A DNA stretch of 56,249 nt from a virus. The stretch lies in the IMG/VR virus record IMGVR_UViG_3300047472_000033, positions 1 through 56,249 of that record; one strand, 5' to 3'. This document shows, one piece after another, positions 10,642 to 38,093 of this stretch. The notes below the pieces were generated by a model. The model worked only from the letters and a program-made list of their open reading frames with translations. It searched no databases and had not been told where the DNA came from. Made by a program: the position numbers and the translations under genes. The first letter of the stretch is position 1, and every line of letters starts with the position of its first letter.

Positions 10642-10645
10642 TACC

Positions 10646-10888: not shown

Positions 10889-10903
10889 CTTCTTTCACAG
10901 GGG

Positions 10904-10947
10904 TCGCAGGAAAAACAGGCCCTATAATGAGACCCCTACGGAAGGAA
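10904..10947 (+). promoter_or_regulatory. Start-associated promoter element 1
   Basis: TCGCA block, A-rich spacer, TATAAT at 10923-10928, then GAGACCCCTAC and a GGAAGG ribosome site before the GTG at 10953. One of 13 copies of the same 40-45 base element. The -10 is perfect, but no TTGACA-like -35 lies at 16-18 bases. Confidence 0.75.
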
Positions 10948-10952
10948 CCACT

Positions 10953-11249
10953 GTGTTCAATCTGAAGTTCAAGACCGACAAGACGATCGACCTCCTCGAG
11001 GACGAAATCGCGCGTGTGTTTGAAGCGATGAAACTTTTGGGAGTCGAGGACGAAGCCTACCCGGTGCTTCGCGAACACCTCACCATGCTCTACAAGCTCA
11101 AGGAAGTTGATTCCAAGAAGAAGCTGAGCACTGATGCGATGGTCGCGGCACTGACAAGCATCCTCGGCATCCTGATCGTCATCGGCTACGAGCACGGACA
11201 CGTGATCACCTCGAAGGCGTTCAACCTCGTCGGCAAGACCGTCAGGTAA
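10953..11249 (+). CDS. Small membrane protein of cassette 1
   Basis: 98 residues from a GTG directly downstream of promoter element 1. A soluble N-terminal half (two amphipathic helices, about residues 10-50) is followed by one membrane span at about 62-79 (AALTSILGILIVIGYE) and a short HGHVITSKAFNLV tail. I know this architecture (a span followed by YEH-x-HVITSKA) from hypothetical proteins of many actinophages, but no function has been assigned that I can name. It is the first and longest-known-looking member of the small-gene array and is followed by a strong terminator. Confidence 0.75.
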   Translation: MFNLKFKTDKTIDLLEDEIARVFEAMKLLGVEDEAYPVLREHLTMLYKLKEVDSKKKLSTDAMVAALTSILGILIVIGYEHGHVITSKAFNLVGKTVR

Positions 11250-11278
11250 CACCGATTACCCCGCAAGATCAATGACTG

Positions 11279-11325
11279 ATGGCGTGTAGACCCCTAGCAA
11301 GGTTTACACGCCATCTGTTTTTTTT
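11279..11325 (+). terminator. Intrinsic terminator after cassette 1
   Basis: A perfect 10-bp stem (ATGGCGTGTA at 11279-11288 with TACACGCCAT at 11305-11314), 16-base loop, then eight T at 11318-11325. The loop includes GACCCCTA, part of the shared leader motif, and AGCAAGGTT, which recurs in the small-RNA candidate near 19.04 kb. Confidence 0.9.
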
Positions 11326-11330
11326 GCCTT

Positions 11331-11373
11331 TCGCAGAAAATACACGGCCTATTATGAGACCCCTACGAAAGGC
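11331..11373 (+). promoter_or_regulatory. Start-associated promoter element 2
   Basis: TCGCAG, A-rich spacer, TATTAT at 11350-11355, GAGACCCCTAC, and ribosome site GAAAGG, ten bases before the ATG at 11379. Confidence 0.75.
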
Positions 11374-11378
11374 ACACC

Positions 11379-11645
11379 ATGAACAAGAACCAGAAAATCG
11401 GATTCGTCATGATGGCTATAGGAGCGATTACGCCAATCGTTCTCGATCATATCTCTCACAAGATCAAGCTGAACAAGACCATCAAAGCGATCGACGCCGA
11501 AACCACGGCTGAGGTCGACGCGATGCGTAAGGCCAGCTCGATTGTGAAGTTGATGATCGAGAACGGTTACTACGAAAATCGTTCCCGCGCTGACATGGAG
11601 AAAGATTTCGAGTTCTTCCGAATGGCTGTCCGCTACAACGACTGA
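11379..11645 (+). CDS. Small membrane protein of cassette 2
   Basis: 88 residues. One N-terminal membrane span at about 7-24 (GFVMMAIGAITPIVLDHI) is followed by a charged helical region (KLNKTIKAIDAETTAEVDAM) and an acidic-aromatic end. With a short positive N-terminus, the tail is probably either periplasm-facing or held at the membrane. It has its own promoter element and terminator. No recognised family; function unknown. Confidence 0.7.
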   Translation: MNKNQKIGFVMMAIGAITPIVLDHISHKIKLNKTIKAIDAETTAEVDAMRKASSIVKLMIENGYYENRSRADMEKDFEFFRMAVRYND

Positions 11646-11649
11646 TCTC

Positions 11650-11690
11650 AAAAGCCTCTGAATCCCACACGGGATTTATGCTTTGTCTTT
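11650..11690 (+). terminator. Cassette terminator 2
   Basis: Nested stems AATCCC/GGGATT (11661-11676, ACAC loop) and AAAGC/GCTTT outside, followed by a T-rich tail that runs into promoter element 3. Confidence 0.65.
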
Positions 11691-11733
11691 CGCAGGAAAA
11701 ACACGGGCTTTAATGAGACCCCTCTACGAAAGG
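11690..11733 (+). promoter_or_regulatory. Start-associated promoter element 3
   Basis: TCGCAGG, A-rich spacer, TTTAAT at 11709-11714, then GAGACCCCTCTAC (two extra bases compared with the consensus) and GAAAGG before the ATG at 11740. Confidence 0.7.
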
Positions 11734-11739
11734 CCAGCA

Positions 11740-12060
11740 ATGGACCTCAAGAAGAAGTTCAAAGACACCAAAGCCAAGATCAAGCACTACGCTCCCGAGA
11801 TCGCTGCTTTCGGCGTCGTCGTCACCCTGGCCGCAGCTGCCATCTACGCGATCAAGAAGGACCTCTCAGAAGGCATCGAAGGAACACTAGTGTTCATTCC
11901 CCAGCCCTCTGAAGAATCTGACAAGACCGAACGTGGAACTGTGTTCAAGGTGACTGGCGAAGACCGCGACAGGATCATCGGAGATACTACGTTCGATCTC
12001 TACGGCATCACTGATGTGGATGACTTCTACTACCTGACCAACGACCCCTCAGACGACTGA
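11740..12060 (+). CDS. Small membrane protein of cassette 3
   Basis: 106 residues from ATG 11740, placed correctly behind the GAAAGG of promoter element 3; an in-frame ATG at 11683 would lie inside the promoter and is rejected. A lysine-rich N-terminus precedes a membrane span at about 20-38, followed by a 65-residue soluble, acidic domain (FKVTGEDRDRIIGDTTFDLY, then TDVDDFYYLTND). The positive-inside rule predicts the acidic part outside the cytoplasm. No family recognised. Confidence 0.7.
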   Translation: MDLKKKFKDTKAKIKHYAPEIAAFGVVVTLAAAAIYAIKKDLSEGIEGTLVFIPQPSEESDKTERGTVFKVTGEDRDRIIGDTTFDLYGITDVDDFYYLTNDPSDD

Positions 12061-12074
12061 TCTCAAACGCCATC

Positions 12075-12104
12075 GGCCGGCCCCACACGGCCTTTGGTTT
12101 TTGT
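12075..12104 (+). terminator. Cassette terminator 3
   Basis: GGCC (12079-12082) pairs with GGCC (12089-12092), followed by TTTGGTTTTTG. A weaker member of the cassette terminator set. Confidence 0.5.
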
Positions 12105-12109
12105 CTGAT

Positions 12110-12151
12110 TCGCACCATTTACATGGCTTATTATGAGACCCCTACGAAAGG
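12110..12151 (+). promoter_or_regulatory. Start-associated promoter element 4
   Basis: TTCGCA, spacer with ATTTACATGGC, TATTAT at 12129-12134, GAGACCCCTAC and GAAAGG before the ATG at 12163. Confidence 0.75.
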
Positions 12152-12162
12152 ACCATATTCTA

Positions 12163-12375
12163 ATGTCTACTCCTCCTCGCTTCAACATCTCAGACGCTCA
12201 GCGCCACTTCACCGCCCCTGTGAACAAGGCCAACATCGCCATCGACGAGATCAAGCGCGAACACAAACTCGCCAAGATCAAGCTCGCTGGTACGTACGTT
12301 GGAATCGTTCTCGGCGCGGCGACGACCGCTTACGTCCTGATCAAGAAGCAGAGCAAGACCACTGAAGAAGACTGA
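12163..12375 (+). CDS. Small membrane protein of cassette 4
   Basis: 70 residues from ATG 12163; the longer in-frame start at 12133 falls inside the leader motif and is rejected. A soluble helical N-terminus (ISDAQRHFTAPVNKANIAID) is followed by a lysine-rich stretch, a C-proximal membrane span at about 41-60 (LAGTYVGIVLGAATTAYVLI) and KK plus an acidic end (TTEED). The shape suggests a tail-anchored inner-membrane protein with the N-terminus in the cytoplasm. No family recognised. Confidence 0.7.
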   Translation: MSTPPRFNISDAQRHFTAPVNKANIAIDEIKREHKLAKIKLAGTYVGIVLGAATTAYVLIKKQSKTTEED

Positions 12376-12390
12376 CCTTCACGATCAACC

Positions 12391-12427
12391 TCAAAGCCCA
12401 CTCCCCCTACACGGGGTTTGGGTTTCG
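12391..12427 (+). terminator. Cassette terminator 4
   Basis: CCCC, TACAC loop, GGGG (12413-12416) then TTTGGGTTT, with an outer AAAGCCCA arm able to pair with TGGGTTT. Typical of the cassette terminators. Confidence 0.7.
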
Positions 12428-12466
12428 CAGGAAATACATGGCCTATAATGAGACCCCTACGAAAGG
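12425..12466 (+). promoter_or_regulatory. Start-associated promoter element 5
   Basis: TCGCAGG, spacer with AAATACATGGCC, TATAAT at 12444-12449, GAGACCCCTAC and GAAAGG before the ATG at 12474. Confidence 0.8.
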
Positions 12467-12473
12467 CATTACG

Positions 12474-12767
12474 ATGCAGCACACTTACTCGTTGTACGGC
12501 TCGCCCCTCCACCTCATTCTCGAAGAGAAGGTTGCTGACGGCTACAATCGTGTACACCTCGGCTTCATCGAGGCGCAGAAGAAATTCAAAGAGGACTACG
12601 GAATCCAGTGGACTCCCGAACTCCCGATCGAAATCAATGCGTCCCCCGAAGACCTCAAGGCATACGACGACATCGCCAAGCTCCTGAACCTCCTGATCGA
12701 GATCAACGGCGGCAGCCTCGACATCAACGAAGACCAGTGCATCACCGCAACGCTTGACCGAGTCTGA
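12474..12767 (+). CDS. Small soluble protein of cassette 5
   Basis: 97 residues from ATG 12474 (the in-frame ATG at 12438 precedes the promoter -10 and is rejected). Unlike most cassette products it has no membrane span. It looks mostly helical, with GSPLHLILEEKVADGYNRVH near the start and two acidic segments. It uses the same promoter and terminator design as its membrane-protein neighbours. Function unknown. Confidence 0.65.
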   Translation: MQHTYSLYGSPLHLILEEKVADGYNRVHLGFIEAQKKFKEDYGIQWTPELPIEINASPEDLKAYDDIAKLLNLLIEINGGSLDINEDQCITATLDRV

Positions 12768-12771
12768 TCTC

Positions 12772-12806
12772 AAAGCCTCTGAACCCCCACATGGGGTTTA
12801 TGCTTT
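12772..12806 (+). terminator. Cassette terminator 5
   Basis: AACCCC (12782-12787) pairs with GGGGTT (12793-12798), and outer AAAGC with GCTTT, then the TTTCGCA of the next promoter element. Confidence 0.65.
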
Positions 12807-12849
12807 CGCACGTAATACATGGCTTATTATGAGACCCTACTGAATAGGA
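12804..12849 (+). promoter_or_regulatory. Start-associated promoter element 6
   Basis: TTTCGCA, spacer with AATACATGGC, TATTAT at 12825-12830, then GAGACCCTAC (one C fewer than consensus) and a divergent AATAGGA ribosome site before the ATG at 12856. Confidence 0.7.
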
Positions 12850-12855
12850 AACGCC

Positions 12856-13098
12856 ATGTTTGGAAACCAGAAGCGCGGTATCCGCATCACCCTCGACAAG
12901 ACCAAGAAGACCGAAAACTCCACCCCCGGAGAGAACGAGATAATTCACCCCCAAACTGTCAAGCTCATCGCTGAGCGAAGCAAGGAAGTTGTGAAGTATG
13001 TCGCTCTCACCGCTATCGGAGCCTACGCAGCCTTCAAGGCTATCGACACCGTGAGCCAGATCGCCATTAAGAAGACCAAGAGCGCAGACCAAGAGTAG
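12856..13098 (+). CDS. Small membrane-associated protein of cassette 6
   Basis: 80 residues. A basic N-terminal tail (about 1-20) and a polar linker precede an amphipathic to hydrophobic segment at about 45-66 (VVKYVALTAIGAYAAFKAID), then a lysine-rich end. Layout is like cassette products 3, 4 and 8. No family recognised. Confidence 0.65.
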   Translation: MFGNQKRGIRITLDKTKKTENSTPGENEIIHPQTVKLIAERSKEVVKYVALTAIGAYAAFKAIDTVSQIAIKKTKSADQE

Positions 13099-13104
13099 AT
13101 CACC

Positions 13105-13131
13105 AACCCGCCCCGCAAGGGGTTTGGGTTT
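13105..13131 (+). terminator. Cassette terminator 6 with GNRA loop
   Basis: AACCC-G-CCCC-GCAA-GGGG-TTT-GGGTT: a CCCC/GGGG stem closed by a GCAA tetraloop and an outer AACCC/GGGTT stem. Confidence 0.75.
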
Positions 13132-13134
13132 AGC

Positions 13135-13178
13135 TCGCATTAAAAACACGGGCTATTATGAGACCCCTACGATTGGAA
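13135..13178 (+). promoter_or_regulatory. Start-associated promoter element 7
   Basis: CTCGCA, spacer with TTAAAAACACGGGC, TATTAT at 13154-13159, GAGACCCCTAC and GATTGGA ribosome site before the ATG at 13186. Confidence 0.75.
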
Positions 13179-13185
13179 ACCAAAG

Positions 13186-13332
13186 ATGTTCGAGAACCTT
13201 AAGCGTTCCGCTGCCGCGATCAACCGTATTGTCAAGTCCCGCCAGAACCACAAGGCGAGGATGAAGATGATCAAGGAAGACGAGGAGTGGATGCTGAATG
13301 CCATCGACGAAGCTTTCAGGAATCTGAAGTAA
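13186..13332 (+). CDS. Small basic protein of cassette 7
   Basis: 48 residues (first residues MFENLKRSAAAINRIV, last FRNLK), stop TAA. It is highly basic in its first two thirds and contains no membrane span, so it could bind nucleic acid or an acidic partner. It is supported by its exact fit between promoter element 7 and its own GCAA-loop terminator. Confidence 0.65.
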   Translation: MFENLKRSAAAINRIVKSRQNHKARMKMIKEDEEWMLNAIDEAFRNLK

Positions 13333-13336
13333 CCTC

Positions 13337-13363
13337 AACCCGCCCCGCAAGGGGTTTGGGTTT
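13337..13363 (+). terminator. Cassette terminator 7 with GNRA loop
   Basis: Identical design to terminator 6: AACCC-G-CCCC-GCAA-GGGG-TTT-GGG-TTT. Confidence 0.75.
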
Positions 13364-13377
13364 CGTCAAAATGAGAG
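13364..13377 (+). promoter_or_regulatory. CGTCAAAATGAGAG leader copy
   Basis: The 14 bases CGTCAAAATGAGAG are shared with the leaders of the connector (43830) and portal (48713) genes. A shorter CGTCAAAATG core precedes or contains the capsid and head-closure start codons at 50622 and 52643. Confidence 0.5.
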
Positions 13378-13385
13378 TGTTTTGT

Positions 13386-13643
13386 ATGAGGATTAAGAAG
13401 GCGATCATCGCCCCCACGTACATCCAGGCACGTCTGTTCTGTCAATTCGAGGGATGGGACGTCAGAGACTTCGACATCCTCACGAGGCCTGAACACCTCC
13501 AAGGTCGTTTCTTCGACGAGTACGAAGTGTGGTGGCTAGACCGTATGTGGTCGTGCAGGACTCACGAAGACGTGGCGTTTATGGTTGAGATGGAGCGCCA
13601 GGCAAAGATTCGCGGCGCCGACCTTCGAAGATGGTGGACCTGA
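13386..13643 (+). CDS. Hypothetical protein
   Basis: 85 residues from ATG 13386 (or 90 from ATG 13371). By analogy with the leaders at 43830 and 48713 the first ATG is probably part of the ribosome-site leader. The sequence has an IAPTYIQARLFCQFEGWDVR segment and is rich in Trp, Arg and acidic residues, with no membrane span. It has no cassette promoter of its own and probably relies on read-through of terminator 7. I do not recognise a family. Confidence 0.6.
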   Translation: MRIKKAIIAPTYIQARLFCQFEGWDVRDFDILTRPEHLQGRFFDEYEVWWLDRMWSCRTHEDVAFMVEMERQAKIRGADLRRWWT

Positions 13644-13679
13644 TCCAAAAAATCCCGCCGTGGAATTTTCGGTATAGGG

Positions 13680-13723
13680 TCGCAGGGTTTACACACCCTA
13701 TAATGAGACCCCTACCGATTGGA
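13680..13723 (+). promoter_or_regulatory. Start-associated promoter element 8
   Basis: GTCGCAGG, spacer with GTTTACACACCC, TATAAT at 13699-13704, GAGACCCCTAC and GATTGGA ribosome site before the ATG at 13731. Confidence 0.78.
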
Positions 13724-13730
13724 CGCTAAC

Positions 13731-13952
13731 ATGCTCCAGACCATCAACGGACGCGAATGCTACGTCGCCGTATTGACCCAGTCTCCTCAGATCTATCTCC
13801 CTGTTGGGGATGACGGTGATCCGCAGCTTACGCCCTACGCGAATGCTCTGGACACCGCCATCCGTACGGGAGTGATCACGGAGCCCGGCAAGTACGGTAT
13901 CGAAGTGAAAACCGACGGTGCCTGGATGGCTTACGCCATTATCGAGAACTGA
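13731..13952 (+). CDS. Small soluble protein of cassette 8
   Basis: 73 residues from ATG 13731; a TTG at 13719 is part of the GATTGG ribosome site. It looks like a compact alpha-beta protein (INGRECYVAVLTQSPQIYLP early, then GKYGIEVKTDGAWMAYAIIE) with no membrane span. Together with cassettes 5 and 7 it shows that the array is not limited to membrane proteins. No family recognised. Confidence 0.65.
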   Translation: MLQTINGRECYVAVLTQSPQIYLPVGDDGDPQLTPYANALDTAIRTGVITEPGKYGIEVKTDGAWMAYAIIEN

Positions 13953-13957
13953 TCTCA

Positions 13958-13992
13958 CCACCCATCCCCGATCCCACACGGGGTTTGGGTTT
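13958..13992 (+). terminator. Cassette terminator 8
   Basis: CCCC (13966-13969) pairs with GGGG (13980-13983), followed by TTTGGGTTT; an inner CCC-ACAC-GGG stem is an alternative. Confidence 0.6.
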
Positions 13993-14009
13993 CGTCGAAG
14001 GAGAAAACC

Positions 14010-14216
14010 GTGAACCGTAGGGCTGTCATGTTCGTTATTTCGCTCGCTGCAGCGGTGGTCACCCACCAGAGTATTATGTTGAAGAAGGTCTATGACCAGG
14101 CATTCGATGCCGGCTGGGAAGGACGCAAGGCATATGAGCAGTGCAAGGCCGACCTCGGCAACGACGACCCTACTGTCGAAGAGTTTGAGTACTGGAAGAA
14201 GTACATCAGGGGATAG
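14010..14216 (+). CDS. Small membrane protein
   Basis: 68 residues from a GTG behind a GAAGGAG ribosome site. An N-terminal span at about 4-22 (RAVMFVISLAAAVVTHQSI) is followed by an amphipathic domain with the segment AFDAGWEGRKAYEQCK. It lies just after terminator 8 without a start-associated element, so it is likely expressed by partial read-through. No family recognised. Confidence 0.65.
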   Translation: MNRRAVMFVISLAAAVVTHQSIMLKKVYDQAFDAGWEGRKAYEQCKADLGNDDPTVEEFEYWKKYIRG

Positions 14217-14217
14217 G

Positions 14218-14260
14218 TCGCATGGAAAACACGGCTTATAATGAGACCCCTACGAAAGGA
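14218..14260 (+). promoter_or_regulatory. Start-associated promoter element 9
   Basis: GTCGCA, spacer with TGGAAAACACGGC, TATAAT at 14237-14242, GAGACCCCTAC and GAAAGGA before the ATG at 14267. Confidence 0.8.
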
Positions 14261-14266
14261 TCCATC

Positions 14267-14443
14267 ATGGACCGCGACGAGAACGAAACCCCTCCCGCTG
14301 ACGCCAAGACCATCATCGCTATTGTCGGTGTGGTGAGCATTGCTACATTCAGTGCTTATCACCTCGGCAAGCTCGGTGTGGACTGGGCGCGCGAAGGTAT
14401 TCGCTCCCGCAAGGAAAAGAAAACGAACTGGACCGTAATCTAA
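14267..14443 (+). CDS. Small membrane protein of cassette 9
   Basis: 58 residues from ATG 14267; the ORF can be read from 14222 but that lies in the promoter. An acidic N-terminus (MDRDENETPPAD) precedes one span at about 14-32 (KTIIAIVGVVSIATFSAYH) and a basic tail (GIRSRKEKKTNW), so the C-terminus is expected in the cytoplasm. No family recognised. Confidence 0.7.
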   Translation: MDRDENETPPADAKTIIAIVGVVSIATFSAYHLGKLGVDWAREGIRSRKEKKTNWTVI

Positions 14444-14448
14444 TCTCA

Positions 14449-14477
14449 AGCCCGCCCCGCAAGGGGTTTGGGTTTTC
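14449..14477 (+). terminator. Cassette terminator 9 with GNRA loop
   Basis: AAGCCCG then CCCC-GCAA-GGGG-TTTGGGTTTT at 14455-14474. Confidence 0.75.
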
Positions 14478-14489
14478 GGAGGGGGAGGC

Positions 14490-14609
14490 ATGAAGAACCA
14501 AGGCTCCAATTTCGCTGTAGTCCTCGGTTGTCTGGCACTAGCTGGTGAGCAATACTGGTTGGGTTTCTGGCTGATCATCATCGGGTGTGTTATTCGCGAT
14601 TATACCTGA
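14490..14609 (+). CDS. 39-residue membrane peptide
   Basis: Starts at ATG 14490 behind a strong GGAGGGGGAGG ribosome site. The product begins MKNQGSNFAVVLGCLALAG and is almost entirely hydrophobic with two Trp-rich turns, ending IRDYT. It is a one- or two-span membrane peptide. The strong ribosome site and fit between terminator 9 and promoter element 10 support it as real. Confidence 0.55.
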   Translation: MKNQGSNFAVVLGCLALAGEQYWLGFWLIIIGCVIRDYT

Positions 14610-14615
14610 TCATTC

Positions 14616-14659
14616 TCGCACGAAAAACACGGCCTATAATGAGACCCCTACCGATTGGA
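14616..14659 (+). promoter_or_regulatory. Start-associated promoter element 10
   Basis: CTCGCACGAAAAACACGGCC, TATAAT at 14635-14640, GAGACCCCTAC and GATTGGA before the ATG at 14665. Closest copy to the consensus. Confidence 0.82.
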
Positions 14660-14664
14660 ATACC

Positions 14665-14853
14665 ATGCCCATCAAGCAGAAGCTCTCTTCCGCCAAGAAC
14701 GCCGTTGCTCGCAACCGTGTCAAGATCCTGGGCACCATCGCCGTCGTATCCACGACTGTGGTGTTGATCCAGGGCCGAAACATCAAGATGTTCAACAAGT
14801 TCCTGGACGAGAAGGGCCTGACTGAAGAGTACTACTTCCTCAACGAAGAGTGA
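14665..14853 (+). CDS. Small membrane protein of cassette 10
   Basis: 62 residues from ATG 14665. A basic N-terminus (KQKLSSAKNAVARNRVK) leads into a span at about 20-36 (ILGTIAVVSTTVVLIQG), followed by a short KMFNKFLDEKGLTEEYYFLN tail. The acidic end resembles that of cassette product 3. No family recognised. Confidence 0.7.
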   Translation: MPIKQKLSSAKNAVARNRVKILGTIAVVSTTVVLIQGRNIKMFNKFLDEKGLTEEYYFLNEE

Positions 14854-14858
14854 TCGAC

Positions 14859-14892
14859 AACCCCTCCCCGCCCCACACGGGGTTTGGGTTTA
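14859..14892 (+). terminator. Cassette terminator 10
   Basis: CCCC-ACAC-GGGG (14871-14882) followed by TTTGGGTTT, with outer AACCCC able to extend the stem. Confidence 0.7.
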
Positions 14893-14909
14893 GCTTTTCG
14901 TCCCAGGGG

Positions 14910-14952
14910 TCGCATGAAAAACATGCCTTATAATGAGACCCCTACCGATTGG
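14910..14952 (+). promoter_or_regulatory. Start-associated promoter element 11
   Basis: GTCGCATGAAAAACATGCCT, TATAAT at 14929-14934, GAGACCCCTAC and GATTGGA before the ATG at 14960. A CATG-AAAAA-CATG inverted repeat lies in the spacer. Confidence 0.8.
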
Positions 14953-14959
14953 ATTCGCC

Positions 14960-15148
14960 ATGCTTAAGAAGCCCTCGAACCCCTCCGAAATTCTCGACGA
15001 CGACTACCGCCGTGCCTACGCTGCGCAGGAAATCAAGAAGACCATCCTCATCTGGGGAGCGGTCAAGCTCGCTTCCACTGCTGCCGTGGTCATCACGCTG
15101 AAGGTCATCGCCAAGAAGCTCGAGGCGAACGCCGCTTCCGAAGACTGA
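14960..15148 (+). CDS. Small membrane protein of cassette 11
   Basis: 62 residues from ATG 14960. A soluble N-terminus (SEILDDDYRRAYAAQEIKK) precedes one span at about 29-50 (ILIWGAVKLASTAAVVITL) and an AKKLEANAASED tail. Orientation is probably N-terminus in. No family recognised. Confidence 0.7.
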   Translation: MLKKPSNPSEILDDDYRRAYAAQEIKKTILIWGAVKLASTAAVVITLKVIAKKLEANAASED

Positions 15149-15171
15149 CATCCACCGCAAGACCTCTACCG

Positions 15172-15202
15172 CCCACACCCCCCTGACACGGGGTTTGGGT
15201 TT
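15172..15202 (+). terminator. Cassette terminator 11
   Basis: CCCC (15180-15183) pairs with GGGG (15190-15193) and is followed by TTTGGGTTT. Confidence 0.65.
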
Positions 15203-15218
15203 CGCTGAAGGGAACAAA

Positions 15219-15389
15219 ATGGGTCAGAGCGTAGACAACGTGGTCAACAAGATGAAGGAAGCCTTCGAGGAAAACCCGCTCGGCGTCATTCTGGCGATCT
15301 CGACTCTGTTCGCTGGTACCGCCAAGCTGGTCAATGCCTTCGCCGGCATCCAGAGCAAGAGGGCTTACGCCCACAAGTACAGCAAGTAG
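15219..15389 (+). CDS. Small membrane protein
   Basis: 56 residues from ATG 15219 with GAAGGGAA upstream. A charged N-terminus (VVNKMKEAFEENP) is followed by one span at about 20-42 (LGVILAISTLFAGTAKLVNA) and a basic tail. It has no start-associated element. With the next two genes it forms a small three-gene unit whose last two members share a repeated ribosome-site leader. Confidence 0.7.
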   Translation: MGQSVDNVVNKMKEAFEENPLGVILAISTLFAGTAKLVNAFAGIQSKRAYAHKYSK

Positions 15390-15403
15390 TCCATATCTAG
15401 GGG
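15381..15403 (+). repeat. 23-bp direct repeat (translation leader), copy 1
   Basis: Identical over 23 bases to 15621-15643. It covers the stop of the upstream gene and the GGGGAGG-type ribosome site of the downstream one, consistent with a tandem gene duplication. Confidence 0.8.
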
Positions 15404-15413
15404 AGGAAGACCC

Positions 15414-15629
15414 ATGAGTGACGACAACGTTCAGAGCATCACGTCTGACGGAAGTGAAGAGGGCGGGGAGGGATTCGACATCAACAAGGAAGACCTCGAG
15501 GAGTTCGCGGCTCGAGTGAACAAGGCTCAGAAGAGCTTCCTGTTCAAGGCAGGCGTCTTCATCATCGCGCTCAAGGTCGTCGACGTAATCGGACGTGTGG
15601 CCATCGAGAAGGTCCGTTCCAGCAAGTAG
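15414..15629 (+). CDS. Small tail-anchored membrane protein, paralogue A
   Basis: 71 residues. The first 40 are acidic and polar (SDGSEEGGEGFDINKEDLEE), then one span at about 42-63 (LFKAGVFIIALKVVDVIGRV) and a basic IEKVRSSK end. The C-terminal third aligns with that of the next gene (both end in G-(R/K)-(V/I)-x-basic-SSK/SKK), so the two look like diverged duplicates. Ribosome site GGGGAGGAAG. Confidence 0.7.
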   Translation: MSDDNVQSITSDGSEEGGEGFDINKEDLEEFAARVNKAQKSFLFKAGVFIIALKVVDVIGRVAIEKVRSSK

Positions 15630-15643
15630 TCCATATCTAGGGG
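15621..15643 (+). repeat. 23-bp direct repeat (translation leader), copy 2
   Basis: Second copy of the leader at 15381-15403. Confidence 0.8.
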
Positions 15644-15654
15644 GAGGGGATCCC

Positions 15655-15891
15655 ATGGGTGAAGACATCACGCCCAACAGCGCCAAGGTCTACAACGTCG
15701 TATCGTACATGAACGACGACACGGACGAGTACACGCACGCGCAGGCAAGCGAAGATATTCGAAGGGCTTCGGAGGCGGTGTACAAGGCCACCAAGGGCGT
15801 TCTCACCAAGATCTGCCTGACCATCGTCGTCTGCAAGGTCATGGGAGTCACGGGGAAGATCATCCTGGGTCGGATGGCGTCCAAGAAATAG
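15655..15891 (+). CDS. Small tail-anchored membrane protein, paralogue B
   Basis: 78 residues from ATG 15655; upstream in-frame starts would run back through the repeat leader and are rejected. Polar N-terminus with THAQASEDIRRASEAVYKAT, then a span at about 49-71 (VLTKICLTIVVCKVMGVTGK) and the tail RMASKK. Probable duplicate of the preceding gene. Confidence 0.7.
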   Translation: MGEDITPNSAKVYNVVSYMNDDTDEYTHAQASEDIRRASEAVYKATKGVLTKICLTIVVCKVMGVTGKIILGRMASKK

Positions 15892-15899
15892 GGCAAACC

Positions 15900-15946
15900 T
15901 CGCATAAAAAACAAGCCCTATAATGAGACCCCTACTCCAGAATGGA
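15900..15946 (+). promoter_or_regulatory. Start-associated promoter element 12
   Basis: CTCGCATAAAAAACAAGCCC, TATAAT at 15919-15924, GAGACCCCTAC, then a longer, divergent gap with a weak GAATGGAA site before the ATG at 15953. Confidence 0.75.
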
Positions 15947-15952
15947 ACCGTC

Positions 15953-16207
15953 ATGCCCGACAAGACCAACTCCGAGAAGACCTCGATCCTCACCGACGCC
16001 ATGAAGCGCGCCGAAGAGCTGAAGAACCGCGTGACCCGCGACTCCAGCGAAGAGACCCCCATCGACAAGAAGACCGCTTACAAGCGTGCTGCTGCCGGTG
16101 TCGGAGTCCTCGCTGCAGTCGCCACCGCCGGCTACTTCGCTTGGAAGGCCGCTGCCAAGGCATCGAAGGACACCGAGACCTCCACGGACGAGTCCGTCGA
16201 AGACTGA
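15953..16207 (+). CDS. Small membrane protein of cassette 12
   Basis: 84 residues from ATG 15953. A charged helical N-terminal half (LTDAMKRAEELKNRVTRD) leads to one span at about 45-64 (RAAAGVGVLAAVATAGYFAW), then a lysine/alanine stretch and a strongly acidic end. No family recognised. Confidence 0.7.
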   Translation: MPDKTNSEKTSILTDAMKRAEELKNRVTRDSSEETPIDKKTAYKRAAAGVGVLAAVATAGYFAWKAAAKASKDTETSTDESVED

Positions 16208-16233
16208 CCCACCACACTGACCGGATGATCAAT

Positions 16234-16265
16234 ACCCAGACCCCCTAACACGGGGTTTGGGTTTC
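16234..16265 (+). terminator. Cassette terminator 12
   Basis: CCCC-TAACAC-GGGG (16242-16255) followed by TTTGGGTTTCC; outer ACCC can pair with GGGT. Confidence 0.68.
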
Positions 16266-16291
16266 CGTTTTCTCTCAAGGGGGATTGAAAG

Positions 16292-16729
16292 ATGTACGGA
16301 CAGAACCGCAAGAAGATGTTCCTGGCTATATCTGGTGCTGTACTGGCCGCGGCATTCATCGGAGGCGTTTCCGCAACGCAACTCGCCTCCGGCGATGACG
16401 AGCCGAAGACGAAGAACTCGATCATCGTGGATCTCACGGGTAAGTGGCACCAGACCGAGGGTGCTCCGGGGATGATCATGGATGCCATCGTAGAGGGCGA
16501 GAGCATCCAGGTCAACGTGATCACCCGTGACTCCAGCACCGTCTACTGGATGGGCTCGTTCAACGAGAACCCCACGTCCAGCAAGATCGTCTCGCTGGCG
16601 GACCCTGACGCGCAGAAGGTCATGAGCGGGTCCATATTCGGGTTGCAAGACCCGTCCAAGACGTTCAACTACGAGGACGGCGTACTCAGCTTCAAGTACG
16701 AGACCTCCACTGTTCAGCTCGAGAAGTAG
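16292..16729 (+). CDS. Membrane-anchored or exported protein
   Basis: 145 residues. The N-terminus (basic NRKK, then FLAISGAVLAAAFIGGVSAT) is a signal anchor or signal peptide. The remainder is a beta-rich domain with IIVDLTGKWHQTEGAPGMIM, SSTVYWMGSF and a repeated LSFKYETSTVQL end, resembling small lipocalin-like or beta-barrel hypothetical proteins of actinophages. It is predicted to act outside the cytoplasm. Ribosome site AAGGGGGA. Function unknown; superinfection exclusion would be one possibility. Confidence 0.65.
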   Translation: MYGQNRKKMFLAISGAVLAAAFIGGVSATQLASGDDEPKTKNSIIVDLTGKWHQTEGAPGMIMDAIVEGESIQVNVITRDSSTVYWMGSFNENPTSSKIVSLADPDAQKVMSGSIFGLQDPSKTFNYEDGVLSFKYETSTVQLEK

Positions 16730-16741
16730 GGATATTCCTCG

Positions 16742-16888
16742 ATGTCGAAGTCGATCAAGAAAGATCTCACCCACCTCATCGCCATCTCCCTCGGGACGTT
16801 CGTCGAATCGGCCTTCAAGGGTGCCGGGGTGGCGTTCGGTGCCGCCCTGATCGCCAAGAAGTTCGGCGTCCTCCCCCTCAAGAAGTAA
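16742..16888 (+). CDS. 48-residue membrane peptide
   Basis: Starts MSKSIKKDLTHLIAISLGTF and ends FGVLPLKK, with one glycine-rich hydrophobic segment at about 11-38 containing a FKGAGVAFGAALIAKK helix. It is compact and basic at both ends. It lies between the exported protein and the DUF6353 gene in what appears to be one operon. The ribosome site is weak (GGGATATTCCTCG). No family recognised. Confidence 0.55.
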   Translation: MSKSIKKDLTHLIAISLGTFVESAFKGAGVAFGAALIAKKFGVLPLKK

Positions 16889-16912
16889 CCGACCACCTCG
16901 CCAATCGCCGGC

Positions 16913-16929
16913 GATATTCGCAAGGAGAG
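16913..16929 (+). promoter_or_regulatory. Ribosome-binding leader GATATTCGCAAGG, second copy
   Basis: Same 13 bases as 8647-8659, here followed by AGAG and the ATG at 16937. An ATCGCCGGCGAT palindrome lies just upstream (16904-16915). Confidence 0.4.
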
Positions 16930-16936
16930 CTTTACC

Positions 16937-17716
16937 ATGGATTTCAGCGCACTCTTCAAGGGTGCCGGAAAGGCCGCTGCAGCAAATTCGCCGGCGATCC
17001 TGACCGCACTCGCTGTGACGGGCACTCTTACGACCGCGTTCTTCGCGGCTAAGGGTGCCTTCAAGGCCAAGGAAGTCATCGACGATGCTCAGGCTACGCA
17101 CGACGCCGAAGAGCAGAGTCACCCGTTCACGACCAGGGAGAAGTTCGATCTCACCTGGAAGTGCTACATCCCCGCGGCGGCTTCCGCTGCTCTGACCGTG
17201 GCGGCGATCATCGGGCTCAACCGCATGGGCGAGCGACGTGCGGCAGCTATGGCTGCTGCATATTCCACGATCCAGAAGGGGTACGAGGAGTACTCCAAGT
17301 CGACGAAGACGAAGCTCGGGAAGACCAAGGAAGAGGCGATGCGTGCGGACATCGCCCAGCGTCGTATCGACGACACTCCGAACAACAGGCTCCCGCGCTT
17401 CATCCAGGACTCCGGTCCAACGATGTGCTTCGATGCCTGGTCGGGTCGATATTTCGGCAGTGACGTGAACTCGATCGACGCCGCCGTGAACGAGTTCAAC
17501 CGGAAGATCATCAACGACAACTACGCATCGCTGAGCGACTTCTGGTACCTGCTCTCCGAGCACGAGCTCCCGCCGACCTCCGGGTCGGACCAGGTCGGAT
17601 GGACCACTGACAACCTCCTGGAGCTCACCAAGGTCTACGGAACGCACATGGGGAATCCCTGCCTCGTCATCGACTTCGAGGTTCCCCCGACCATGAAGTA
17701 CGACACGCTGTATTGA
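16937..17716 (+). CDS. DUF6353-family membrane protein, paralogue 1
   Basis: 259 residues. Two hydrophobic segments at about 19-38 (PAILTALAVTGTLTTAFFAA) and 76-95 (IPAAASAALTVAAIIGLNRM) flank a KAKEVIDDAQ helix. A long helical stretch (about 98-150) and a C-terminal domain follow, with GPTMCFDAWSGRYF and PCLVIDFEVPP. The same architecture occurs in the protein at 21297. I associate it with DUF6353, a phage family of unknown role. It may build a membrane-bound complex with the neighbouring single-span proteins. Confidence 0.7.
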   Translation: MDFSALFKGAGKAAAANSPAILTALAVTGTLTTAFFAAKGAFKAKEVIDDAQATHDAEEQSHPFTTREKFDLTWKCYIPAAASAALTVAAIIGLNRMGERRAAAMAAAYSTIQKGYEEYSKSTKTKLGKTKEEAMRADIAQRRIDDTPNNRLPRFIQDSGPTMCFDAWSGRYFGSDVNSIDAAVNEFNRKIINDNYASLSDFWYLLSEHELPPTSGSDQVGWTTDNLLELTKVYGTHMGNPCLVIDFEVPPTMKYDTLY

Positions 17717-17757
17717 AGAGCGGCGTGTTTCTACGCAGCTAACCACCTGGGGGATTA

Positions 17758-18243
17758 ATGGCATATTGCCACGACTGCCCCGATCGCGAAGCTTGCCATC
17801 AAGGCATGTCCTGCGAGCTTTCCAAGAAGTTCGCTGTAGCAGCACAACTGTTGTATTCCAAAACTAGCCCCGAGAGGCAAACCACCATGTCGAAGAACGC
17901 CGAGAGCAAGAACATCACCGCCGCCGACGTCGTCGCGGAGGCCGAGAAGGCCAACCTGCTCCAGGAGGACGCGACCGTTCCCGCCCAGGCCACCAACCCC
18001 GACACCGAGGTCGTCGACGAGAAGAAGACGGACGGGTGCGACCAGTCGGAGCCGAAGGTCTCGCTCTTCGGCAAGGTGAAGCTCTTCGTCCAGGACCACA
18101 AGGCGGCGATCTCCTTCGGCACGGTGGTCGCCACCGGTCTCGCGGCCCTCATGTTCAACAAGCTCTCCGACAAGAGCACCGAGGACGAGGCGGAGGAGAC
18201 CGACACCGTCGAGGTCACGGACTCCGAGACCCCCGAAGCCTGA
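17758..18243 (+). CDS. Membrane protein with possible Cys-rich N-terminal extension
   Basis: 161 residues if translated from ATG 17758, with CHDCPDREACHQGMSC (a possible metal-binding Cys cluster) at the N-terminus; 118 residues from the internal ATG 17887, which has a GAGAGG site. Codon use changes at 17887 to extremely GC-rich third positions, so the internal start is probably the main one. The core has a polar region, one span at about 118-137 (AAISFGTVVATGLAALMFNK) and an acidic C-terminus. Two starts could give two isoforms. No family recognised. Confidence 0.6.
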   Translation: MAYCHDCPDREACHQGMSCELSKKFAVAAQLLYSKTSPERQTTMSKNAESKNITAADVVAEAEKANLLQEDATVPAQATNPDTEVVDEKKTDGCDQSEPKVSLFGKVKLFVQDHKAAISFGTVVATGLAALMFNKLSDKSTEDEAEETDTVEVTDSETPEA

Positions 18244-18303
18244 TCAACCAACCCCCCAGTAAATACCGGCCCCCACCGGAACGCCAGATAAGGAAACACC
18301 ACC

Positions 18304-18867
18304 ATGGCACTCATCAACCACACCATATCGTACAAGGACCTGGACGGAAACCCCGCCGTGGTCACGTACCAGTTCAACCTGAACGCGTCCGAGATCGCCG
18401 AGCTGAAGATCGCTCACAACGACGACCTGCCGGCGTACCTCGACAAGATGATCAAGTCGCAGAACGGCCAGGAGGTCATTATCGGCTTCCGCTCGATCCT
18501 CACCAAGGCCGTAGGCATCCGTGAGGGCGACCAGCTCGTCAAGAGCCAGGAGATCGAGGACCGGTTCGTCCAGACCGGCGCCTACGACGCCATGTTCCTG
18601 GAGCTCATCGGCTCGAAGGACAGCGGTGCGGGCTTCATCAACTCCATCATGCCGCAGGAGATCATCGACAAGCACGCGCAGGAGACCCATCACTCCGACG
18701 AGGAGCTCCTCACGATGTCGAACCGCGAGTTCGCGGAGATCGCCGGCACCGACCCGAAGGCGATGTCCAAGCACCTTCTGCCCATCTACCACGAGCGCAA
18801 GGAGCGTGCCCGCGCGGAGAACGCCCACAAGAAGGTCCGCCCGAAGAAGCACCGTCAGGCGGCCTGA
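18304..18867 (+). CDS. Tail assembly chaperone-like protein
   Basis: 187 residues with very GC-rich codons. The opening (HTISYKDLDGNPAVVTYQFN then LNASEIAELKI), the middle (QEVIIGFRSILTKAVGIREG) and TGAYDAMFLELIGSKDSGAGF follow the pattern of a family often annotated as tail assembly chaperone in actinophages. The C-terminus is very basic (KKVRPKKHRQ). It is odd that it sits in the small-gene region and not beside the tape measure; another chaperone candidate is at 54164. Codon use suggests strong expression. Assignment is tentative. Confidence 0.5.
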   Translation: MALINHTISYKDLDGNPAVVTYQFNLNASEIAELKIAHNDDLPAYLDKMIKSQNGQEVIIGFRSILTKAVGIREGDQLVKSQEIEDRFVQTGAYDAMFLELIGSKDSGAGFINSIMPQEIIDKHAQETHHSDEELLTMSNREFAEIAGTDPKAMSKHLLPIYHERKERARAENAHKKVRPKKHRQAA

Positions 18868-18983
18868 TGTCTAGGCGAAAGAAGTACGGCCCGGGACGGT
18901 TCCTGGTCGACCTCACCCTCGGTTTCCTTACTGGTGGTCTGTGGTGGATCTGGATGCTGTTCCGGGCTTTGCGCACCGCCTGA
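18867..18983 (+). CDS. 38-residue membrane peptide
   Basis: ATG overlaps the preceding stop (TGATG), so it is translationally coupled. The product starts MSRRKKYGPGRFLVDLTLGF and ends LFRALRTA, with one Trp-rich span (GFLTGGLWWIWMLFRAL). Short basic peptides of this kind follow tail-chaperone-like genes in some actinophages. Function unknown. Confidence 0.55.
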   Translation: MSRRKKYGPGRFLVDLTLGFLTGGLWWIWMLFRALRTA

Positions 18984-19069
18984 TATATACGTGATGACTG
19001 GGGAATCAGCAACAGGCCTTGTCCCGTGTAGGGGTCTCAGCAAGGTTTGTCCTCCGGATGCTGATTTTA
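18984..19069 (+). ncRNA. Candidate small RNA with antisense seed to the cassette leaders
   Basis: An extended -10 (TGATATATAC, 18981-18990) precedes a structured segment. AATCAGCA at 19004-19011 and a second TCAGCA at 19037-19042 can each pair with TGCTGATT at 19059-19066, giving two alternative stems, the inner one followed by TTTT like an intrinsic terminator. Between them GTAGGGGTCTC (19028-19038) is the exact reverse complement of GAGACCCCTAC, the leader motif of the cassette genes. Transcription as a small RNA is inferred. The alternative is an inverted copy of a protein-binding site. It is too short and lacks the T-arm for a tRNA. Confidence 0.4.
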
Positions 19070-19157
19070 AACGCCAGCCGAGCCCATCCTCCCCCGTGTG
19101 GGAAACATGTGCCCTGGTCATCGCGCCATCGATATTCTGAAGAGGAGGTGTACAACG

Positions 19158-19232
19158 ATGGACGAAGAGGAATGGGTGGACGGTAATGGAAATCCTACCG
19201 CTCCCCCTGAGCAAATCATTTACCCCCGTTAG
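19158..19232 (+). CDS. 24-residue leader-like peptide
   Basis: Sequence begins MDEEEWVDGNGNPTAPPEQI and ends IYPR; it has a strong GAAGAGGAGGTG ribosome site. It is acidic and proline-rich. It ends 34 bases before the NlpC/P60 start and could couple or regulate its translation. Supported mainly by the strong ribosome site. Confidence 0.45.
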   Translation: MDEEEWVDGNGNPTAPPEQIIYPR

Positions 19233-19266
19233 GAAACGCAGTTCCTTCGAAAGATTGGACAGCACC

Positions 19267-19755
19267 ATGAAAAGCACCGTAAGCAAGATCGTCCTCATAT
19301 TCGTACTGGCATTCGGAACGGTTTCCGTTTCTATGCCCAGTGCAGAGGCCGCGCCGACGCTCAGGTCCGCCGCCATGGCAAGCGCCAACACCCAGAAGGG
19401 TGCGAAGTACGTATGGGGTGCAGCAGGGCCCTACAGCAAGGGCTACGACTGCTCTGGCCTGATCTACTGGGCGTACAAGCAGCACGGTAAGACGCTGCCG
19501 CGAGTCGCCCAGGACCAGTACAATCACTCAACTCACATATCCGCTGGATCCCGGCAGCCGGGAGACCTGGTGTTCATACGTGACGCTCGGGGTCACGTAT
19601 ACCACGTAGGGATATTCACCCGTGTCTACAAGGGCAAGGGCATGATGGTCAATGCGAACTACGGGAGAACCACCGCCCATATTGTTGGGGAGTGGCCGAT
19701 CTCGAACTACACGTATGGATCGCCGTACGCTTCATACGGCCGGTACTACAACTGA
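19267..19755 (+). CDS. Secreted NlpC/P60-family peptidoglycan hydrolase
   Basis: 162 residues from ATG 19267. A clear Sec signal peptide (about 1-28: basic start, KIVLIFVLAFGTVSVSM core, cleavage expected after SAEA) is followed by an NlpC/P60 domain. The catalytic Cys is C62 in YDCSGL and the His is H113 in HVYHVGI; the G-A-x-Y-x-W-G-A-A-G-P motif before the Cys is typical. These enzymes cut cell-wall peptides (usually D-Glu to diamino acid). A signal peptide means export without the holin, unlike the amidase at 42958. Likely roles are cell-wall remodelling, release or exclusion; this is inference. It may be host-derived. Confidence 0.85.
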   Translation: MKSTVSKIVLIFVLAFGTVSVSMPSAEAAPTLRSAAMASANTQKGAKYVWGAAGPYSKGYDCSGLIYWAYKQHGKTLPRVAQDQYNHSTHISAGSRQPGDLVFIRDARGHVYHVGIFTRVYKGKGMMVNANYGRTTAHIVGEWPISNYTYGSPYASYGRYYN

Positions 19756-19758
19756 CCA

Positions 19759-19807
19759 TCGCAGAAAAAACATGCTCTATAGTGAGACCCCTACTTTTTT
19801 CGAAAGG
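19759..19807 (+). promoter_or_regulatory. Start-associated promoter element 13
   Basis: ATCGCAGAAAAAACATGCTC, TATAGT at 19778-19783, GAGACCCCTAC, a T run, then CGAAAGG before the ATG at 19816. Last copy in the array. Confidence 0.72.
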
Positions 19808-19815
19808 CGCCAGCC

Positions 19816-19968
19816 ATGACCAAGGAACAGAAGAAGTGGCTCGTCAAAGCAGTATTCAGTGTTGTCACCTCGTACTTCATCGGCCAGATCATCAAGGCTG
19901 AGCGGAAGGTCGAGGACATGATCGACGCCAAGGTTGACGAGCACTTCGACGGCTCCAAAACCGGCTGA
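19816..19968 (+). CDS. Small membrane-associated protein of cassette 13
   Basis: 50 residues: MTKEQKKWLVKAVFSVVTSY, then FIGQII and a charged amphipathic helix (KAERKVEDMIDAKVDEHF). One short hydrophobic segment at about 8-26 may insert in the membrane. Promoter element 13 and terminator 13 frame it exactly, so I consider it real. Confidence 0.65.
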   Translation: MTKEQKKWLVKAVFSVVTSYFIGQIIKAERKVEDMIDAKVDEHFDGSKTG

Positions 19969-19991
19969 CCACACAGACCTATACCGACTCT

Positions 19992-20025
19992 CAAACTCGA
20001 CCCCCTGACACGGGGTTTAGGTTTC
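19992..20025 (+). terminator. Cassette terminator 13
   Basis: CCCC-TGACAC-GGGG (20002-20015) followed by TTTAGGTTTCT. Last of the cassette terminators. Confidence 0.65.
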
Positions 20026-20041
20026 TCTGATCGAGGTAATC

Positions 20042-20737: not shown

Positions 20738-20747
20738 AACCAACGCC

Positions 20748-37719: not shown

Positions 37720-37745
37720 AACAGATACCGTAGAGGCGAAATTAC

Positions 37746-37765
37746 ACGGGGTATAATAGAAGGGG
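37746..37765 (+). promoter_or_regulatory. Promoter before the nuclease/RNA-polymerase-like operon
   Basis: ACACGGGGTATAATAGAAGG with TATAAT at 37752-37757. As in the cassette elements an ACACGG block directly precedes the -10 and no -35 is obvious. A 13-base sequence AACAGATACCGTA at 37720-37732 just upstream is repeated in the origin region (37046-37058). Confidence 0.6.
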
Positions 37766-37805
37766 TAAGATAAGCCTCCCGTTTCGTCGATGAAAGAGGT
37801 GACAC

Positions 37806-38093
37806 ATGAAGGAATCTGAGTTCCAAACGAAGCTGATCAAAAAGCTTCGACACATGTTTCCTGACTGTGTCATACTCAAGAATGACCCCAGCTACTTGCA
37901 AGGCGTACCGGACCTCGTGATCTTTCACGGAGCCCGGTACGCCTTTCTCGAAGTCAAAGCGAGTGAGACCGCACCGTTCCGGCCGAACCAGCCTTACTAC
38001 CTTGAGCTGTTGAACGGCATGTCCTTCGCTGAAGCTATCTACCCTTCGAACGAACAGGAAGTACTCGATGAACTCGCAAGAGTATTCGGGTAG
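37806..38093 (+). CDS. VRR-NUC family nuclease
   Basis: 95 residues, GAAAGAGGTGA ribosome site. Minimal VRR-NUC domain: N-terminal E-x(4)-L helix (KESEFQTKLIKKLRHMFP), GVPDLVIF near 33-40 with the catalytic Asp, and FLEVKA near 48-53 with the E-x-K. Stand-alone VRR-NUC proteins are common in phages and cut DNA junctions or ends. It starts an operon with a second PD-(D/E)xK nuclease. Confidence 0.85.
   Translation: MKESEFQTKLIKKLRHMFPDCVILKNDPSYLQGVPDLVIFHGARYAFLEVKASETAPFRPNQPYYLELLNGMSFAEAIYPSNEQEVLDELARVFG

Follow-up and report, generated by a model that had tools for sequence, protein, structure and literature searches.

Which enzyme reads a start sequence that a phage places before one tiny gene after another? 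The question is raised by the IMG/VR virus record IMGVR_UViG_3300047472_000033 (positions 1 to 56,249), whose whole 56,249-bp stretch was analysed and is called the window below. Thirteen near-identical elements, all on the + strand and with TATAAT-box starts from 10923 to 19778, stand there before thirteen small genes, with a gap of 23-32 nt between box and start codon in every case. An earlier note, made from the sequence alone, had pointed to this array, and the repeat proved to be real and far beyond chance: TGAGACCCCTAC at up to two mismatches matched 17 times in the window against 5.28 expected, and none of 100 shuffles reached 17. As described below, the element is, near certainly from its sequence features, a lineage-specific promoter. 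It is not a sigma-70 promoter; it marks out an entire phage lineage that has an RNA polymerase of its own. The elements are most likely read by the phage's own two-barrel polymerase, a protein of family phrog_4291, a reading to which we give a probability of about 0.6.

The consensus of the element is TCGCR-N6-ACA-N5-TATAAT-GAGA. With TATAAT placed at -12 to -7, strong conservation is seen at CGC (-30 to -28), ACA (-20 to -18), TATAAT itself and GA (-6/-5), although the columns were partly picked by the scoring matrix itself. In phages of Streptomyces, Gordonia and Rhodococcus, TATAAT is followed by GAGACCCCTAC (the CCCCTAC leader) and a Shine-Dalgarno sequence, and element copies preceding RNA genes are without the CCCCTAC part. 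In the Rhodococcus phage ReqiPepy6, tRNA-Ala begins 9 nt past the box, and the element was therefore taken as a promoter and not as a translation signal; in Lactococcus phage P078 an Rfam tRNA match begins ~11 nt past one box. The part through GAGA thus looks like the promoter, and CCCCTAC with the Shine-Dalgarno sequence looks like a shared mRNA 5' leader outside the promoter core. A sigma-70 consensus scan of the window gave 2 sites against 4.4 expected, both of them on the - strand and neither at an element. The elements lack the TTGACA-like -35 at 16-18 nt that defines a sigma-70 promoter, and across 235 elements TTGACA-like hexamers (at least 4/6) were rarer than in shuffles (31 vs ~48). 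An N4-style hairpin promoter was also considered; weak - strand stems lie over some elements, but their arms are not kept in P078 or in Lactococcus phage 1706.

The element is found well beyond the window. At least 119 IMG/VR stretches matched the pattern TATWATGAGACCCCTAC, and de novo k-mers gave the same core in relatives from other hosts, namely TTTTACATACCC-TATAAT-GA in Lactococcus P078, TTTTACATACAC-TATAGT-AGA in Lactococcus 1706, AATTACACGGGC-TATAAT-GA in Arthrobacter Mudcat and TTTACAGTGGG-TATAAT-AGA in Curtobacterium AddiRose. The bipartite element is carried by all 23 sampled phages in which the phrog_4291 protein is encoded; their hosts range from Streptomyces to Lactococcus and Faecalibacterium. 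A matrix built from 42 sites of 5 phages gave 270 hits above 9 bits on the + strand of these 23 phages against 6 on the - strand, and 235 against 0 above 14 bits; the Gordonia Deejayvirinae phages Avazak and Secretariat have 14 and 12 hits above 9 bits. At the same threshold phiC31 gave none, and SPbeta, which has no array, gave 6 on the + and 1 on the - strand. To avoid circularity, the octamer TATAATGA alone was searched in the 18 phages outside the matrix. On the + strand (n=129), CGCR was in place at 113 copies, ACA at 96 and both at 92, against none of 7 copies with CGCR or ACA in place on the - strand.

The link with the polymerase was examined from both sides. IMG/VR records were picked by the polymerase alone (29 of the 34 of ~25 kb or longer, as 2 had already been scanned as named phages and 3 of ~25 kb were omitted; 4 of the 29 overlap the element-picked set). 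In 28 of these 29 there were 1-15 elements (197 in total), in each record on one strand, which was that of the polymerase gene. The element was found in none of 21 control records picked by the phiC31 portal (21 of the 22 records of at least 34 kb, with phiC31 itself omitted). Among 50 records picked by the element alone, 38 hold the polymerase family, 2 of them as weak partial matches only. The 12 without it and the 2 weak cases were rechecked, and 7 of these 14 hold the primase-polymerase of the lineage, as fragments would be expected to do. A longer element pattern, run against 84,980 bacterial genomes, matched only once, on a 4-kb contig that is a phage fragment with 7 elements and carries tail, holin and array genes of the same lineage.

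The product of 38712-41405 matches phrog_4291 (E=0), a family labelled 'RNA-dependent RNA polymerase'. Its DFDGD, the DxDGD metal-binding motif, shows no variation in either of two alignments, of 15 and of 37 proteins. The predicted structure (mean predicted local distance difference test, pLDDT, 78.9) gave a VIA Z of 16.7 to QDE-1 (2j7n, 385 aligned, root-mean-square deviation 6.5) and of 14.1 to phage P74 gp62, both matches covering the predicted core, residues ~235-726. Based on this model, the protein is predicted to be a single-chain two-barrel (double-psi beta-barrel) RNA polymerase of the QDE-1/YonO/phage type. Helix-turn-helix matches were found toward both of its ends. A search of solved structures by sequence returned no significant polymerase match, and for the DFDGD stretch there was only a hit at E 0.69 to a phage beta' subunit. 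A census of 21 compared phage genomes, in which contig89, phiC31 and SPbeta were omitted, showed that 15 open reading frames (ORFs) of the window have relatives in all 21. The non-virion members of this core are the HNH and VRR endonucleases, the exonuclease, the polymerase and an 83-aa protein, and no sigma factor or regulator was recognised among the 15.

In most of these phages the polymerase gene is itself preceded by the element. In the window this gene begins 960 nt downstream of the copy with its box at 37752, and 17 of the 23 phages have an element of at least 9 bits within 2 kb upstream of this gene. In 15 of these the distance is 889-1080 nt, which places the element before the whole nuclease-exonuclease-polymerase operon; in the other two it is larger. 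A separate observation concerns what follows this copy. At window 37733-37800 and in relatives, the element is followed by a conserved AGAAGGGATAGAATA-like stretch with no immediate start codon, perhaps a leader RNA. In Egad (L184, ~28475) and CapnMurica (L187, ~31588) elements precede similar stretches (GAGAAGGAAG..CGAATGTTG); these contain no obvious gene, and at gathering scores Rfam gave no match.

The polymerase was named as the reader because it is the sole core protein with both a recognised transcription function and DNA-binding domains. Starting at each element, it would make short RNAs that span a single tiny gene or a few of them and stop at a hairpin. As a copy of the element also stands before its operon, expression of the polymerase would be self-reinforcing. 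The operon would then need its own product, and the first molecules would therefore be brought in by the virion or made by weak host transcription. What the analysis itself shows is the element, its conservation and its confinement to the lineage, the missing -35 box, the predicted fold of the polymerase and one exchange of a whole cassette. In this scheme we infer the identity of the reader, the start point, the virion delivery and the order of expression.

Several observations weigh against reading by the phage polymerase. In 6 of the 23 phages, the 2 kb upstream of the polymerase gene held no element of at least 9 bits. The lineage shares ~15-20 core genes, so that co-occurrence cannot single out the polymerase. 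A Mantel comparison meant to do so failed: the divergence of the motif correlated with that of the polymerase at r 0.605, no better than with the terminase (0.716) or the DNA polymerase (0.665), both of which are higher (FP_oengus and MT835495, with fewer than 4 strong elements each, were omitted). TATAAT is an ideal host -10 box as well. YonO, a polymerase of the same type and by function the closest relative that has been studied, is reported to transcribe late structural genes (PMC5467207, available part), and the structural genes of the window are without elements, which occur only at 10.9-19.8 kb and 37.6-37.8 kb. As to virion delivery, the sole pointer to a virion location is the record label 'structural protein' of orf75, the polymerase of Lactococcus phage 1706, together with a note that cites it, which we treat as a hint and nothing more.

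The chief alternative is that the elements act as strong early promoters for the host RNA polymerase and its housekeeping sigma factor, aided by a phage or virion activator bound to the TCGCR and ACA boxes. This is possible, but we consider it the less probable explanation. TATAAT is the consensus -10 box, the array genes look early by position and size, and actinobacterial sigma-A tolerates poor -35 boxes. Against this stands not only the missing -35 box described above. The spacing of TCGCR and ACA is equal in Faecalibacterium and actinobacterial phages, the ACA spacing holds in Lactococcus phages too, and FP_oengus uses CTTTATGG. Moreover, the divergence of the motif tracks phage proteins (r 0.33-0.72) above host genus (0.27), and the core census offers no activator candidate. 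In the available text of two announcements of Gordonia cluster DJ phages, however, the motif is named a sigma-70 -10 promoter (PMC9671010, PMC10868162).

The cassettes also have to be considered as units of exchange. The thirteen genes encode proteins of 48-106 aa, which the earlier note had called single-span membrane proteins for the most part. A 19-residue hydropathy maximum of at least 1.5 was found in 9 of the 13, and another reached 1.45, whereas the products of 12474, 13186 and 13731 look soluble. Hairpins, which had been noted for most genes, in fact end all of them: a script found a hairpin with a T-rich tail after 12 genes, and the gene at 10953 ends in a 15-bp stem followed by TGTTTTTTTT. 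The commonest form is CCCC-loop-GGGGTTTGGGTTT, and the tail ACGGGGTTTGGGTTT at up to three mismatches matched 13 times against 1.24 expected, with none of 100 shuffles reaching this number. The claim of single-gene cassettes has to be restricted. Promoter-gene-terminator units are present, but genes with their own Shine-Dalgarno sequence and no element follow several hairpins (13386, 14010, 14490, 15219, 15414, 15655, 16292, 16742 and 16937), and therefore the hairpins are leaky or such genes are served otherwise. One promoter, one gene and one terminator is true of the frame, not of every gene. The array also holds, at 16937-17716, one of two paralogous DUF6353 (phrog_2152) proteins, with relatives in 18 of 24 compared phages; the other lies after the array at 21297-22235. 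A small NlpC/P60 hydrolase gene (19267-19755) lies between array cassettes. Furthermore, an inverted copy of the leader stands directly 5' of some elements (Bing 26627, LibertyBell 25225, L018 6102, L039 1659, L056 8279, L076 4128, L108 4288, L122 8464). Such a copy would let the leader fold into a long hairpin in a read-through transcript, though not in a transcript begun at the element, and insulation is a possible role.

The earlier expectation of exchange at cassette boundaries was borne out when phages were compared. The unit 12425-12806, from element to element, has 91.4% identity over 383 nt in two other phages (L028 and L032), in which its first ~200 nt are nearly identical and its flanks are unrelated to those of the window; this is one clear case of whole-cassette exchange. 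The seventh cassette (13154-13332) is absent from another phage (L043), where the match to the window breaks off at 13131 and resumes at 13326, across two copies of the same hairpin. By tblastn (E 1e-3) against 24 other phages, 9 of the 13 element genes had no relative, a weak test for such short proteins. The cassettes may swap between phages by homologous recombination in the shared start and stop repeats. As these sequences can serve as homology, no recombinase need be assumed; a site-specific recombinase acting on cassette sites, as in integron-like gene capture, was not recognised among the 15 core ORFs, although the window genes as a whole were not searched for one.

Could the element then be chiefly a recombination site or operator repeat, such as an exchange site or a repressor- or stoperator-like sequence, with transcription as a side effect? 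The breakpoints of cassette exchange do fall at elements, an inverted leader copy flanks some of them, and the authors of the Mossy announcement, in its available part, tie the repeat to rearrangements (PMC11008172). However, the fixed distance to the start codon, the invariable coding-strand orientation, the -10-like box and the position directly 5' of a tRNA gene speak against such a repeat, and the hairpins are exchange points too, so that homology alone accounts for the exchange. We regard this explanation as improbable. Less probable still is a translation start signal like the start-associated sequences of cluster K, since, although the CCCCTAC-GAAAGG part adjoins the start codon, the most conserved columns are the upstream boxes and TATAAT, an element precedes a tRNA, and the cluster K 13-mer is at chance level (3 two-mismatch matches against 1.43 expected, none at an element), so that the likeness suggested in the earlier note is not supported.

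Within the array lies a conserved structured RNA, which in the window follows closely on the phrog_4282 gene and a 38-aa ORF. The reverse complement of the mRNA leader, GTAGGGGTCTC, is contained in its loop. The outer stem covaries strongly: 6 of 8 pairs are changed on both sides, 97.7% of cells are paired, and none of 500 shuffles reached its covariation score. The RNA is also present in L008, L009, L010, L163, L193, L196 and L199. Of the 23 phages, a covariance model picked out 8, and these are exactly the ones that have the leader GAGACCCCTA; there were 2 marginal hits besides (E 0.009 and 0.025). As all 8 had been fed to the model, the informative part is that no further phages were found. 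Among the polymerase-picked records, 14 of 29 contain it, all within the 18 that have a GAGACCC-like leader, and it was found in none of the 11 records without such a leader and in none of the 21 controls. No Rfam match was obtained across window 10000-21500, which includes the RNA. When the 14 loops were compared with their leaders, covariation was partial: several loops go with a variant leader, such as TGAGGGGTC with GACCCCTC in G067 and TTGGGGTCTC with GAGACCCCAA in G019, but others, as in G064 and G066, do not. It is a reasonable guess from these sequences that a phage RNA may pair with the whole set of array mRNAs. A full scheme can be put together, in which a virion-delivered polymerase, sigma-free through its own helix-turn-helix domains, would read the bipartite promoter (TCGCR, ACA, TATAATGA) in actinobacterial and firmicute phages and fire exchangeable takeover cassettes, and in which the antisense-loop RNA would control translation of the set in phages with the GAGACCCCTAC leader. 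Taken as a whole, this scheme is doubtful. The coordinates of all features are collected in Table 1.

Table 1. Elements, cassette genes, hairpins, structured RNA and polymerase operon in the window
Feature	Position	Strand	Basis
Element 1 (TCGCA..TATAATGAGACCCCTAC)	10904..10939	+	repeat family
Element 2 (TATTAT)	11331..11366	+	repeat family
Element 3 (TTTAAT)	11690..11725	+	repeat family
Element 4	12110..12145	+	repeat family
Element 5, left boundary of exchanged cassette	12425..12460	+	repeat family, phage comparison
Element 6, right boundary of exchanged cassette	12806..12841	+	repeat family, phage comparison
Element 7	13135..13170	+	repeat family
Element 8	13680..13715	+	repeat family
Element 9	14218..14253	+	repeat family
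Element 10	14616..14651	+	repeat family
Element 11	14910..14945	+	repeat family
Element 12	15900..15935	+	repeat family
Element 13 (TATAGT)	19759..19794	+	repeat family
Variant element (ACACGGGGTATAATAGAAGGGG), box 37752, upstream of VRR-Nuc/exonuclease/RNA polymerase operon	37733..37768	+	
Cassette gene 1, 98 aa, with a hydrophobic stretch; relatives in 15/24 other phages	10953..11249	+	hydropathy, tblastn
Cassette gene 2, 88 aa	11379..11645	+	
Cassette gene 3, 106 aa	11740..12060	+	
Cassette gene 4, 70 aa	12163..12375	+	
Cassette gene 5, 97 aa, without membrane span	12474..12767	+	
Cassette gene 6, 80 aa	12856..13098	+	
Cassette gene 7, 48 aa, without membrane span; cassette absent in L043	13186..13332	+	
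Cassette gene 8, 73 aa, without membrane span	13731..13952	+	
Cassette gene 9, 58 aa	14267..14443	+	
Cassette gene 10, 62 aa	14665..14853	+	
Cassette gene 11, 62 aa	14960..15148	+	
Cassette gene 12, 84 aa	15953..16207	+	
Cassette gene 13, 50 aa	19816..19968	+	
Terminator-like hairpin, gene 1	11278..11325	+	
Terminator-like hairpin, gene 2	11661..11685	+	
Terminator-like hairpin, gene 3	12075..12101	+	
Terminator-like hairpin, gene 4	12403..12425	+	
Terminator-like hairpin, gene 5	12782..12807	+	
Terminator-like hairpin, gene 6	13111..13131	+	
Terminator-like hairpin, gene 7	13343..13363	+	
Terminator-like hairpin, gene 8	13966..13992	+	
Terminator-like hairpin, gene 9	14455..14475	+	
Terminator-like hairpin, gene 10	14866..14891	+	
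Terminator-like hairpin, gene 11	15177..15203	+	
Terminator-like hairpin, gene 12	16240..16265	+	
Terminator-like hairpin, gene 13	20000..20025	+	
Conserved structured RNA; its loop at 19028-19039, GTAGGGGTCTCA, matches the array leader exactly as reverse complement	19001..19080	+	
VRR-NUC/endonuclease gene, polymerase operon	37806..38093	+	
Exonuclease gene, polymerase operon	38104..38715	+	
phrog_4291 RNA polymerase (predicted), 897 aa; DFDGD 515-519; two-barrel core 235-726; terminal helix-turn-helix matches	38712..41405	+	
phrog_4303 small protein (83 aa), with polymerase in 21/21 compared phages	41402..41653	+	

If the phage polymerase is the reader, the element would be a concrete candidate promoter for two-barrel phage polymerases, a question open since YonO, and the motif of several genome announcements would have a candidate reader. 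The lineage is convenient for such work, with ~250 deposited phage records, easily grown hosts and a purifiable 100-kDa enzyme, and a compact orthogonal polymerase-promoter pair for use in actinobacteria might come out of it. The array also shows that small genes can move as self-contained units.

Some known systems resemble the array in layout only. The early region of the Streptomyces phage phiC31 consists of promoter-gene-terminator units with many repeated regulatory sites; its repeats, however, are TACTCACGTGAGTA palindromes, and the element was not found in phiC31. In cluster K mycobacteriophages the start-associated sequences are a short repeat before many small genes, but this repeat is unlike the window element. 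The closest published counterpart is the repeated 43-50-bp intergenic motif of Gordonia cluster DJ, called a sigma-70 -10 promoter or a translational start and described together with small membrane genes, terminators and rearrangements in the available parts of the announcements of Vardy (PMC9671010), Conley (PMC10868162) and Mossy (PMC11008172). It shares the lineage (Avazak and Secretariat are Deejayvirinae), the middle region with small membrane-protein genes, TATAAT and predicted terminators, and is very probably the same element. In those parts the motif is published for one cluster, without the bipartite structure, the host spread or a link to a phage polymerase. A Rhodococcus survey, in its available part, reports an architecture of small transmembrane genes common to clusters CC, AM, AW, AU and DJ (PMC13313380). 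In the open-licence PMC literature, neither the occurrence of the element beyond these phages nor its bipartite form, its link to the polymerase or the anti-leader RNA was found in print.

Other systems resemble the window through the polymerase. YonO of Bacillus phage SPbeta is likewise a single-chain two-barrel polymerase, but according to the available part of the 2017 paper it transcribes late structural genes as one operon, and its promoter and need for helpers were left open (PMC5467207). SPbeta is without an array of these elements, and its yonK-yonN, the reported YonO start region, showed no clear element copy, though the published start coordinate could not be placed in the phage record. 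Such service of a structural-gene operon was not seen in the window, where no elements lie near the structural genes (other promoter forms are possible). The virion-carried polymerase of the crAss-like phage phi14:2 (gp66, PDB 6vr4, as titled in the entry) is also a two-barrel single-chain enzyme, but it has 2166 residues and matches the window polymerase only weakly (E 0.017). P23-45 gp64 and P74-26 gp62 of Thermus phages are solved single-chain two-barrel polymerases that match the predicted core, and dedicated phage promoters are known for them by 5'-end mapping (PMC10770324, available part); their hosts and gene layout differ from those of the window lineage. The regulatory system described here is real and widespread, and it fits this known kind, phages with their own RNA polymerase and promoters.

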